Below, piece by piece: positions 18,560 through 22,588 of a DNA stretch of 64,000 nucleotides (position 1 is its first letter; every line of letters begins with the position of its first letter). The stretch is from Coriobacteriia bacterium (GTDB taxonomy: Bacteria; Actinomycetota; Coriobacteriia; Anaerosomatales; Anaerosomataceae), in contig JAUSOQ010000043.1 in the NCBI GenBank assembly GCA_030655755.1, positions 248,001-312,000 on the forward strand, given 5' to 3'. Under the pieces are notes generated by a model. It had not been told where the DNA came from and did not search any database. It was given only the letters and a program-made list of their open reading frames with translations. Position numbers and translations under genes: made by a program.

Positions 18560-18952
18560 CTAGCCGATGCCCTGGTCACCCGGGTGATAGGTCTGAAGAA
18601 GCGTATCGCTGTTGGCCGATAGGCTCATGATCAGGCGGGCGACGAGGTCATGCACGATCAGCGTGTGTCGATTGTCCTGTGCGACGAACGCGTCTTTGAG
18701 CGCAGGCGTGACAGAGGGATCACCGCTCACTTCGATGATGAGATCGATGTCGTTGCCTCTGGCGGCGAGCACGTCCGCGTTCTCGGTGTAGAAGATGCCG
18801 TTCGCGCGAGCGGTCTGCGCTCCCTGGCTGTCGGAATCGGCGTCAGCCAGGCCGACGACCTCGATGAACGGGCGCTTGAGGAAGTCCTCGAGCAGCGGTG
18901 TACCGGTACGGCCACCCCCGACGATCGCTATACGAATCTTGTCCTGAGCCAT
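18560..18952 (-). CDS. Small stand-alone Rossmann dinucleotide-binding protein, unknown function
   Basis: The 130-residue protein begins MAQDKIRIAIVGGGRTGTPL, a clear beta-alpha-beta nucleotide-binding loop. An acidic residue at the end of strand 2 (VVGLADADSD) would fit NAD binding, and the segment DLIIEVSGDPSVTPAL follows. The pattern resembles the N-terminal domain of Gfo/Idh/MocA or homoserine-dehydrogenase-like oxidoreductases, and the dinucleotide-binding modules attached to some sensor kinases. There is no catalytic C-terminal domain. I cannot assign a reaction. The start at ATG 18950-18952 has GAGGGG five bases upstream. It sits between ispG and proS in the same direction. Confidence 0.8.
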   Translation of the reverse strand: MAQDKIRIAIVGGGRTGTPLLEDFLKRPFIEVVGLADADSDSQGAQTARANGIFYTENADVLAARGNDIDLIIEVSGDPSVTPALKDAFVAQDNRHTLIVHDLVARLIMSLSANSDTLLQTYHPGDQGIG

Positions 18953-19027
18953 GCTGTCCCCTCTCGCCGAATACGGGCTCACGTACGGTAAGCAGGATAC
19001 CAGGAGTGCAGGTCTGCTGCTATAAGA

Positions 19028-20089
19028 TCAGTTTCGGTCAAGATCGGCGATCTCGTCCATGAGCGCAGAGACGATCTCGTTCTCGCCGACCTTTCTGATC
19101 GGCTCGCCCTTACGGAAGATGAGGCCCACACCTTTACCGGCCGCCACGCCGATGTCGGCATCGCGTGCCTCACCGGGGCCGTTGACGATGCAACCCATCA
19201 CTGCGACCTTGACCGGTGTCTTGATGCTGCGAAGTCGCTGTTCGACCTCCTGGGCGATTGCAACGAGGTCGACCTCGCAACGGCCGCATGTGGGGCAGGA
19301 GATGAGCTCGGGCCCCCTGCGCCGGATGTCGAGTGCGGCGAGGATCTCCCAGGCCACGCGTACTTCCTCGACGGGGTCGGCGGTCAACGAGACGCGCATC
19401 GTATCGCCGATGCCGTCATAGAGCAGGACACCGAGTCCCACTGCGGACTTCACCGTCCCCGAGAACGAGGTCCCGGCTTCGGTGACTCCGATATGCAGCG
19501 GGTACGGCAGCGTGCTGGCAAGGGCGCGATAGGCGTCTATGGTGGCGTTGACCGAGGAAGCTTTTGCAGACACGACGATGTCTTTGAAGCCGCGATCCTG
19601 GAAATGGTTGCAGAAAGAGACGGCGCTCGCGACGAGTTTCTCGGCAAGAGGCCAGTCTTTGTCGTGGTACTCGTCGGCCAAAGAGCCGGCGTTGACGCCG
19701 ATACGAATTGGGATCCCGGCCTCGCCAGCTGCGTCTATCACAGCATCCACCCGCTCGGTCGCACCGATGTTGCCGGGGTTGATGCGCAGTTTCGCAGCAC
19801 CTCGGTGTGCGGCCTCGATAGCGAGCCGGTGGTCGAAGTGGATGTCGGCGATCACCGGTAGCGGGGACTGTGCGCAGATGCGTTCGAACCCATCGAGCGC
19901 ATCGGCATGAGGGATCGCAACGCGGACGATCTCGCAACCGGCCTCGGCAAGACGGCGGATCTGTACGAGTGTCGCTCCAGGATCACGGGTGTCGGTGTTC
20001 GTCATCGACTGGACGCTCACGGTGGCGCCGCCACCGATCACGACGTCGCCGACAAGCACCGGACGGGTCTCACGACGTGGCGTTACCAA
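19028..20089 (-). CDS. ispG: (E)-4-hydroxy-3-methylbut-2-enyl-diphosphate synthase
   Basis: IspG (GcpE) catalyses the penultimate MEP-pathway step with a [4Fe-4S] cluster. The 353 residues have the SVQSMTNTDT motif near the start, the TIM-barrel segment, and cluster ligands C265 and C268 (SCPTCGRC) and C300 with E307 (GCIVNGPGEA). The start codon appears to be TTG at 20087-20089 with GGGGAG about four bases upstream. No ATG or GTG lies between it and the conserved TRPVLVGDVVIGGG segment. It follows rseP by 16 bases and belongs with dxr upstream. Confidence 0.95.
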   Translation of the reverse strand: MVTPRRETRPVLVGDVVIGGGATVSVQSMTNTDTRDPGATLVQIRRLAEAGCEIVRVAIPHADALDGFERICAQSPLPVIADIHFDHRLAIEAAHRGAAKLRINPGNIGATERVDAVIDAAGEAGIPIRIGVNAGSLADEYHDKDWPLAEKLVASAVSFCNHFQDRGFKDIVVSAKASSVNATIDAYRALASTLPYPLHIGVTEAGTSFSGTVKSAVGLGVLLYDGIGDTMRVSLTADPVEEVRVAWEILAALDIRRRGPELISCPTCGRCEVDLVAIAQEVEQRLRSIKTPVKVAVMGCIVNGPGEARDADIGVAAGKGVGLIFRKGEPIRKVGENEIVSALMDEIADLDRN

Positions 20090-20105: not shown

Positions 20106-21353
20106 CTATCCGACCAGACGTGCGATATCAGCGTACATGATGTATCCGATGAAGGAGAACAGTAGCAGCGCCCCCGCTGCGCTCAGACCGATCGAGATCG
20201 AGCGGCTGAGGGATCGTCCCATGATTCGCTCGATGACCTCCACGAGGACTTTCCCGCCGTCGAGAGGCGGTATAGGGAGGATGTTCATCGCGCCGAGTGA
20301 GAGCGAGAGCAGTGCGATCAAGAAGGCGTAGTCGAGCGGACTGGTCGTCGCCGCTTCGGCTGCCATGATCGATATGCCGACGATGCCGGCGGATTGGCCG
20401 ACGCTCTGCTGGAAGGTCGCCGGCTGGAAGAAACCGCCGATCGCCTTGAAGACGAGTCCGACGTAGCTGAGCGATTCACCGAGCGCTCCGGCGACCGACA
20501 ACTTGATGTGCGTCCATGTCGGCGCCACGCCCAGATAGGCGCGCCCGTTTTTCGCGGCAAGCGTGACGTCAAAGGTGAGTGGCGTCGAGTCGCGCAGTAC
20601 CGTGATAGTGACGTCAGTTCCCGGGTCGAAGGTGGCCACGGTCTCGCTGAACGCCTGCCAGGAGTCGACCTGCACGCCGTCGATGGCCGAGAGCGTGTCC
20701 CCCACCTGCAGGCCGATTGTCTCGGCCGGGGTGTTAGGCATGACTTCGGAGACTACGGGCATGACTAGATAGTAGCCCCAGATAGCGAACACGAACGTGA
20801 ATGTCAGGATCGCGGTAAGCATGTTGACTGCGACTCCCGCAGTGAGCACGGTGATGCGTTTCCATGTCTTGGCGCCCCGGAATGTGATGGCTCTAGCTGC
20901 CGAGAGGAGCTCGTGCTCATCGGTGTCTACAGTCGCCGTGTGAAGCGACACGTAGGAGGCATCATCGTTTGGTGTGGCCTCGATAGCTCCCCAGTCGGCT
21001 AGTGTTGCGAGCAGTGCGGAGGCGCGATCGCGCTCGACCCCGATCATACGAGCGAGCGAGGCGGCATCCGCGCGCCCTGTTATCGAGATGGACTTGAGCG
21101 CGGGGCCGAGGAGTTCGTCTTCCGGGCCGGGTTCCATACCGGCGATACGGACGTAGCCTCCGAGCGGTATGGCGGTTATGCCCCACGTCATGTTCTTGGT
21201 CGTGATGCGGATGGCCGGGCCAGGCAATCCGATCATGAACTCGTGGACCTTGATCTTGAAGGCGCGTGCCGCAAGGAAGTGGCCGCCTTCATGCAAGATC
21301 ACGAGTATAGAGAACGTCACTATGCCCCAGAACACGGTTGTCACAACTGTCAT
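20106..21353 (-). CDS. rseP: RIP zinc metalloprotease RseP with inserted winged-helix-like segment
   Basis: RseP-type site-2 proteases cleave membrane-bound regulators within the bilayer. The 415-residue protein has the first membrane helix with HEGGH at 21-25, GGYVRIAG at 65-72, a PDZ domain at roughly 200-285, and the second metal motif in NILPIPPLDGG before the last membrane helices. Unusually, about 75 residues (80-158) between GGYVRIAG and the AKTWKR segment form a soluble insert. It reads like a helix-turn-helix or winged helix (DAASLARMIGVERDRASALL, then a strand-rich part). The ATG has only a weak GGATAG ahead. Neighbours dxr and ispG are the typical context. Confidence 0.93.
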   Translation of the reverse strand: MTVVTTVFWGIVTFSILVILHEGGHFLAARAFKIKVHEFMIGLPGPAIRITTKNMTWGITAIPLGGYVRIAGMEPGPEDELLGPALKSISITGRADAASLARMIGVERDRASALLATLADWGAIEATPNDDASYVSLHTATVDTDEHELLSAARAITFRGAKTWKRITVLTAGVAVNMLTAILTFTFVFAIWGYYLVMPVVSEVMPNTPAETIGLQVGDTLSAIDGVQVDSWQAFSETVATFDPGTDVTITVLRDSTPLTFDVTLAAKNGRAYLGVAPTWTHIKLSVAGALGESLSYVGLVFKAIGGFFQPATFQQSVGQSAGIVGISIMAAEAATTSPLDYAFLIALLSLSLGAMNILPIPPLDGGKVLVEVIERIMGRSLSRSISIGLSAAGALLLFSFIGYIMYADIARLVG

Positions 21354-21439: not shown

Positions 21440-22588
21440 CTATAGTAGCTCCTCGGCCACCTTTCGGGCCCATCCATCGATCTCTTCTATCTGTTCGACG
21501 CTTTGGAGACTCTCGACGTTGTGTCGCTCCATGACGGTCTCGATCACACGTGGGATATCCAGGAATGCAGCTCGGTGTCTAAGGAACGCTGCAACAGCGA
21601 TCTCGTTCGCAGCGTTCATGACCGCAGGCATCGTGCCCGCAGTCCGTCCGGCCTCAAGTGCGAGTCCGAGGCACGGAAACGCTCCGTAGTCGGGATCTTC
21701 AAAGTCCAAATGACCGATCTGGGTGAAATCGACTGGAGGCAGGGGTGCCTCCCACCGTTCAGGATGACTGAAAGCGTACTGGATCGGTATCCGCATGTCG
21801 GTCGCGCCGAGATGCGCCTTCACCGAGCCGTCTGAGAACTCGACCATCGAGTGGATGCACGACTGCGGGTGCACGACGATGCGTATCTTGTCGTACGGCA
21901 CGCCAAAGAGGTGGTGCGCTTCGATGGTCTCAAGGCCCTTGTTCATAAGAGTGGCCGAGTCGATGGTGATCTTCGGACCCATCGTCCATCGGGGGTGCGC
22001 GAGCGCCTGCTTGACCGTGACGTCGGTGAGTTGGTCACGTGTGCGTCCGCGGAATGGGCCGCCCGATGCCGTGAGCCAGATCCGCTCGACATCACGGGGA
22101 CGTTCACCAACGAGGCACTGATAGATGGCGGAATGCTCACTGTCGACGGGTAACATCTCTGCATCCTCGGCGAGTCTCATCACGAGTTCGCCGCCAACGA
22201 CGAGCGACTCTTTATTGGCCAAAGCGAGACGCTTGCCTGCAGATAGAGCAGCGATGGAGGAGCGAAGGCCTGCTGCGCCAACAAGCGCGTTGAGTATGAT
22301 GTCGGCTGATTCGAGCGCAGCGAGTTCGACGACGGCTTGCGGTCCCCTATCGATGGTCGCGTTGAGTCCGTCAAGCAGTGATCGTGTGTGCTCGGCTGCG
22401 GCAGGGTCACTCAGCGCTACGCGAGAGACCTTGAAAGTGCGGGCCTGCGCAGCGAGCAGCTCGGCGTTGCTATGTGCTGCGAGAGCGACAATCTGTATGC
22501 GCTCCGGGAAGCGCGCGGCGATCATGAGTGTCTGGCGGCCTATAGAGCCGGTGGAGCCGAGAACCACCACACGCAGTGGGCGGCTCAC
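21440..22588 (-). CDS. dxr: 1-deoxy-D-xylulose-5-phosphate reductoisomerase
   Basis: Dxr converts DXP to MEP with NADPH, the first committed isoprenoid step. The 382-residue protein has the nucleotide loop GSTGSIGRQT at 11-20, ANKESLV, the metal site PVDSEHSAI and the flexible-loop region GPKITIDSATLMNKGLE. The start is GTG overlapping the cdsA stop by one base (TAGTG). With ispG and uppS nearby, the cluster covers precursor and carrier-lipid synthesis. Confidence 0.97.
   Translation of the reverse strand: MSRPLRVVVLGSTGSIGRQTLMIAARFPERIQIVALAAHSNAELLAAQARTFKVSRVALSDPAAAEHTRSLLDGLNATIDRGPQAVVELAALESADIILNALVGAAGLRSSIAALSAGKRLALANKESLVVGGELVMRLAEDAEMLPVDSEHSAIYQCLVGERPRDVERIWLTASGGPFRGRTRDQLTDVTVKQALAHPRWTMGPKITIDSATLMNKGLETIEAHHLFGVPYDKIRIVVHPQSCIHSMVEFSDGSVKAHLGATDMRIPIQYAFSHPERWEAPLPPVDFTQIGHLDFEDPDYGAFPCLGLALEAGRTAGTMPAVMNAANEIAVAAFLRHRAAFLDIPRVIETVMERHNVESLQSVEQIEEIDGWARKVAEELL

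Follow-up and report, generated by a model that had tools for sequence, protein, structure and literature searches.

The window analysed here, a stretch of 64,000 nucleotides from a Coriobacteriia bacterium, encodes a homologue of RseP, a widespread enzyme of envelope-stress control whose known control points are an outer PDZ filter and an intramembrane beta-loop. This homologue carries an extra domain of residues ~75-158 in the loop between TM1 and TM2, just past the membrane-reentrant beta-loop. What is this domain, how widely is it found, and what might it do at such a place? A cytoplasmic domain adjoining the beta-loop would be a natural system for asking about the control of site-2 proteases from inside.

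The rseP gene and its genomic context

The rseP gene (20106..21353, minus strand) encodes a site-2 (M50) intramembrane metalloprotease of 415 aa. The ORF matches the NCBIfam model TIGR00054 (RseP) with 196.6 bits, above the cut-off of 147.55, as well as Peptidase_M50 and PDZ in Pfam. B. subtilis RasP, E. coli RseP and Aquifex RseP are structural matches of the whole chain (Z about 27). The HEGGH zinc/catalytic motif is located in TM1 (residues 21-25; 21279..21293, minus strand) and the LDGG motif at residues 364-367 (20253..20264, minus strand), with HExxH, GGYVRI, GAKTWKR and LDGG starting at residues 21, 65, 160 and 364, respectively. In an alignment of 66 sequences, H21, E22, G24 and H25 are invariant, and L364, D365 and G366 are found in at least 90%. 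Residues 36-70 (21144..21248, minus strand) form the strands of the C1N/membrane-reentrant beta-loop region, namely E36-41, E47-51, E56-60 and E66-70 in the AlphaFold2 model, with the role of the region taken from PMC4597795. A single PDZ domain, identified by Pfam, phmmer and structural matching, occupies residues 196-282 (20508..20768, minus strand); the PDZ_2 match itself (46.7 bits) covers residues 198-265, between TM2 and TM3.

The gene is flanked by dxr upstream (21440..22588, minus strand) and ispG downstream (19028..20089, minus strand), within the row cdsA-dxr-rseP-ispG-proS, and uppS is also nearby. The names of these neighbours were assigned by reading their translations. In Collinsella, rseP is found in the same gene row, with dxr and ispG in the same order. 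The window gene is the housekeeping RseP in an ordinary housekeeping row; that row, together with there being one strong domain-profile match in the genome, led us to reject a specialised site-2 protease paralogue. A small Rossmann-like ORF of 140 aa is also found between ispG and proS (18560-18982, minus strand).

Position and length of the insert

The interval 20880-21116 (minus strand), to which the preliminary description had assigned an insert, corresponds to residues 80-158 of RseP. In a phmmer alignment with Aquifex RseP (9j82), residues 11-79 of the query match residues 7-75 of the chain, and the query from residue 158 onward matches the chain from residue 79 onward. Residues 79 and 158 are thus only four residues apart in Aquifex RseP, which shows that the insert is real. 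From GM (residues 72-73) to residue 158, the stretch measures 83-159 residues in Coriobacteriia; outside the class it measures 10-27 residues in nearly all RsePs sampled, apart from two cases with unrelated linkers (47 and 60 residues) and the Bacilli with 91-92. The flanks of the insert had been described as close together in ordinary family members. This is so in Aquifex RseP and in most others sampled, but not in Bacilli, which have another insert there. When homologues are aligned, the length seen in the window is normal within Coriobacteriia and not in most other lineages sampled. A frameshift, fusion or local oddity was rejected as the origin of the insert, given its class-wide occurrence and the purifying selection on it (see below).

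In Atopobiaceae and Coriobacteriaceae (L068, L071-L073, L093, L095 and L098-L103), the insert has ~35 additional residues beyond the wing, for a total of 117-120, and many of these inserts carry a YDRGHDF-like stretch there.

Predicted fold of the insert

The AlphaFold2 model of the whole protein, built from 66 rows of homologues from public genomes, has a pLDDT of 96.2. Within the insert it predicts the elements H82-92, a strand at 94-95, H97-104, H108-120, E124-127, E130-136 and H146-154. The order of these elements is that of a winged helix (H1-S1-H2-H3-S2-wing-S3), and the same elements are obtained when the insert is folded alone (pLDDT 88.9, 42 rows). The winged-helix domain is accordingly placed at residues 82-136 (20946..21110, minus strand), after which a fourth helix (residues 146-154; 20892..20918, minus strand) connects the insert to the GAKTWKR segment and TM2.

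A fold search with the whole model listed matches to the core and the PDZ domain only, and the insert was therefore modelled and searched by itself. With VIA-align, its best match in the PDB is the FtsK gamma domain (Z 9.2, 69 residues aligned, 2.6 A, 16% identity), followed by Z-alpha (8.8), TrmBL2 (8.7) and VPS25/36 (8.5); MarR-like, IclR-like and FeoC winged helices are also on the list. Foldseek returned the same kind of matches, with weak E-values (best 7.5e-3). When 47 inserts were scanned singly against profiles, TrmB was matched by 14 of them (best 1.5e-5), MarR_2 by 10, FtsK_gamma by 6, PafC by 5 and FeoC by 4, with further matches to IclR, TFIIE_alpha and DDRGK. The window insert itself stays below the Pfam gathering scores, with 16.2 bits for TrmB (cut-off 25.6) and 16.0 for MarR_2 (cut-off 27). 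In a control search, the RseP of a genome of the same family (G003) exceeded the MarR_2 cut-off by itself, at 27.2 vs. 27.0 bits. Taken together, the model, the consistent kind of structural matches and the profile matches identify the insert as a genuine winged-helix domain, firmly so for a prediction. The helix-turn-helix-like character noted in the preliminary description is thus borne out, both in the whole protein and in the insert alone, with PDB winged helices as the top matches. W121, which closes the recognition helix ahead of the wing, is nearly invariant.

Distribution, descent and selection

A profile of the domain matches 241 of 248 genomes of the class, representing 106 of 109 genera (E <= 1e-6). 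The domain is present in all of the first 30 loci taken from the window's order, and carriers by name include Collinsella, Olsenella, Slackia, Adlercreutzia, Gordonibacter, Enteroscipio and Parvibacter. The assignment to Coriobacteriia follows these named carriers, which interleave with the other loci on the tree described below. Among the seven genomes without a profile match, one has a divergent copy (G521), four have no clear RseP match (G029, G046, G077 and G508) and in one the RseP is only a fragment, lying at the end of a contig (G048). The seventh, a termite Coriobacteriia MAG (L119/G064), has the only clear RseP of the class that lacks the winged helix, and its gene is intact, so the domain has been dispensable at least once.

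Outside the class, the domain is absent from the RsePs sampled in other classes of Actinomycetota, which are short there, and no winged-helix insert is found in those sampled from Clostridia, Chloroflexi and Proteobacteria (a Zetaproteobacterium). A profile search of the same phylum outside the class gave no comparable match, only weak ones (best E 2.5e-6 vs. 2e-16 or better in the class genomes included in that search). The winged helix in RseP is a class-wide trait of Coriobacteriia, and the bacteria that keep it include common human gut species as well as environmental ones. In the open-licence literature that can be searched, a limited scope, we found no description of it.

A tree was built from the membrane core, with the insert and the PDZ domain excluded. 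The RsePs of the class form one clade (support 100/100), and the presence of the winged helix requires two changes on the tree: most simply, a single gain at the root of the class and one loss in L119, a long branch whose placement is uncertain.

For the winged helix, five pairs have dN/dS values of 0.07-0.21 and one close pair has 0.43, with several dS values near saturation. These ratios are about equal to those of the PDZ domain, while the TM regions are stricter, and the winged helix evolves faster than the membrane core. By these values, the domain is under purifying selection. The insert could instead be a near-neutral relic passed on by descent, in a loop tolerant enough to hold an unrelated insert in Bacilli and to have lost its domain once in the class. 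We regard this as unlikely, considering the low dN/dS and the retention of the domain across about 106 genera.

Comparison with the Bacilli insert

The RsePs of Bacillus velezensis and Enterococcus gallinarum (L176 and L177, residues ~70-160) carry a strand-rich stretch of 91-92 residues at the same point of the loop. The cytoplasmic insert of Bacilli RasP/Eep thus resembles that of Coriobacteriia in size and insertion point, and these two features are what would favour a single, ancient Gram-positive insert common to both groups. However, the Bacilli stretch is rich in strands, the B. velezensis insert has no Pfam match, a joint alignment with the two Bacilli rows reveals no alignable similarity, and the sampled Clostridia have no insert at all. 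Common origin is hence extremely improbable. By sequence the two inserts appear to be unrelated, which implies that the loop has gained domains at least twice.

EcsB (PF05975) was found in the B. subtilis and L. lactis controls and not in 59 genomes of the class. An EcsAB partnership like that of Bacilli was therefore rejected for Coriobacteriia, and the difference may hint at inserts that are specific to their partners.

Charge of the domain and DNA binding

The insert had been described beforehand as a DNA- or protein-binding module. DNA binding would fit a fold typical of DNA-binding regulators, and the TrmB/MarR_2 and FtsK gamma families, which bind DNA, are among the best matches. The domain might then bind DNA or the nucleoid and so tether the protease or couple proteolysis to transcription. 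As controls for the charge of RseP inserts, we took a comparable stretch of 20 MarR_2 domains, drawn from nine genomes that belong to the same order. All families of the class have an acidic winged-helix domain. Its mean net charge per 100 residues is -9.0 without the wing (-1.0 in the MarR_2 controls) and -8.6 with it (-0.9 in the controls), and a net positive charge is seen in 1 of 99 RseP inserts vs. 25% of the controls. In 72% of 93 RsePs, two or more acidic residues fall within the first six positions of the recognition helix; this is the case in 0% of the controls, whose recognition-helix windows were placed by eye. Moreover, alignment reveals no basic wing motif in the order of the window.

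The domain being acidic and its recognition helix starting acidic, DNA binding is disfavoured: on this indirect argument from charge, ordinary DNA binding would be unlikely, and the tethering or coupling role outlined above very unlikely. It is the DNA half of the earlier description that loses ground; the half on protein binding and substrate selection would still account best for the domain. The MarR_2 controls lack the acidic crowding seen in the recognition helix of the RseP insert. The FtsK gamma domain, the best structural match, differs in being a DNA-reading domain that ends a translocase.

Proposed role at the beta-loop

Protein-binding winged helices are familiar from other systems, e.g. 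FeoC, ESCRT-II and cullins. FeoC, VPS25/36 of ESCRT-II, the cullin WHB and DDRGK1/UFL1 resemble the RseP domain in fold only, being separate proteins or parts of other contexts.

The beta-loop of E. coli RseP inserts from the cytoplasmic face of the membrane, touches the TM segments of substrates and helps to select them (PMC4597795). C1N, the cytoplasmic region preceding the beta-loop, also binds substrate according to a passage of PMC7728848 that cites this. The winged helix closely follows the last strand of the beta-loop (E66-70, then H82). The topology of E. coli RseP (PMC4597795) also supports the assignment of the insert to a cytoplasmic loop in the preliminary description; by this analogy the insert would face the cytoplasm.

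In our judgement, the winged helix is probably a cytoplasmic protein-interaction module that selects, positions or gates substrates at the beta-loop and arose by a single acquisition at the base of the class; both the protein binding and the gating are what we infer. Its docking target would be the portion of a substrate that lies in the cytoplasm, such as that of an anti-sigma factor together with its sigma factor, or else the corresponding portion of a membrane protein acting as partner. Such docking would select substrates for, or gate their access to, the adjoining substrate-binding beta-loop, and placing it next to the entry site is the most economical reading. In this reading, W121 may be one of the contacting residues.

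Winged helices often pair with one another. This general tendency would also suit a purely structural or dimerisation module that stabilises the region from the beta-loop to TM2 or mediates RseP self-association, with no part in substrate selection. Both the additional helix (146-154) and W121 might pack against the core. Still, RseP folds without a winged helix in the other lineages sampled, and we consider such a module rather unlikely.

PDZ loss in Eggerthellaceae and other site-2 proteases

Coriobacteriia RseP shares with known Group I site-2 proteases of the RseP/RasP type (E. coli 7w6x, Aquifex aq_1964 9j82 and B. subtilis RasP in 9a6w) the HExxH motif, the membrane-reentrant beta-loop, the PDZ domain, the NxxPxPxLDG motifs and the dxr-rseP neighbourhood. 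It differs from them in the added winged helix and in having a single PDZ domain, or none in Eggerthellaceae. The added domains of bacterial site-2 proteases named in a review are PDZ and CBS (PMC10202637); Group III enzymes, described there, likewise carry an added domain, which in their case is CBS, and lack PDZ.

The Eggerthellaceae RsePs (L074, L076-L080, L108, L111-L118 and L120-L128) have no PDZ domain and keep the winged helix. In place of the usual 85-90 residues they have 9-10, and Pfam finds no PDZ match in the two scanned, L078 and L112. As the PDZ domain is lost, control of RseP in this family must do without the size filter that PDZ usually provides. A class-specific cytoplasmic gate, with the winged helix sensing substrates from their cytoplasmic side and complementing the extracellular PDZ filter, or replacing it in Eggerthellaceae, is a tentative proposal to which we give modest weight. 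Since the winged helix is kept after the PDZ loss, the question of control from inside is directly testable in this family.

Other variations around the PDZ region were also seen. Four Clostridia/Lachnospiraceae MAGs (L150, L152, L153 and L156) have RseP-like ORFs of 240-245 aa with seemingly neither PDZ nor winged helix, and in the RseP of the termite MAG (L119/G064) the PDZ region is longer, at 112 residues.
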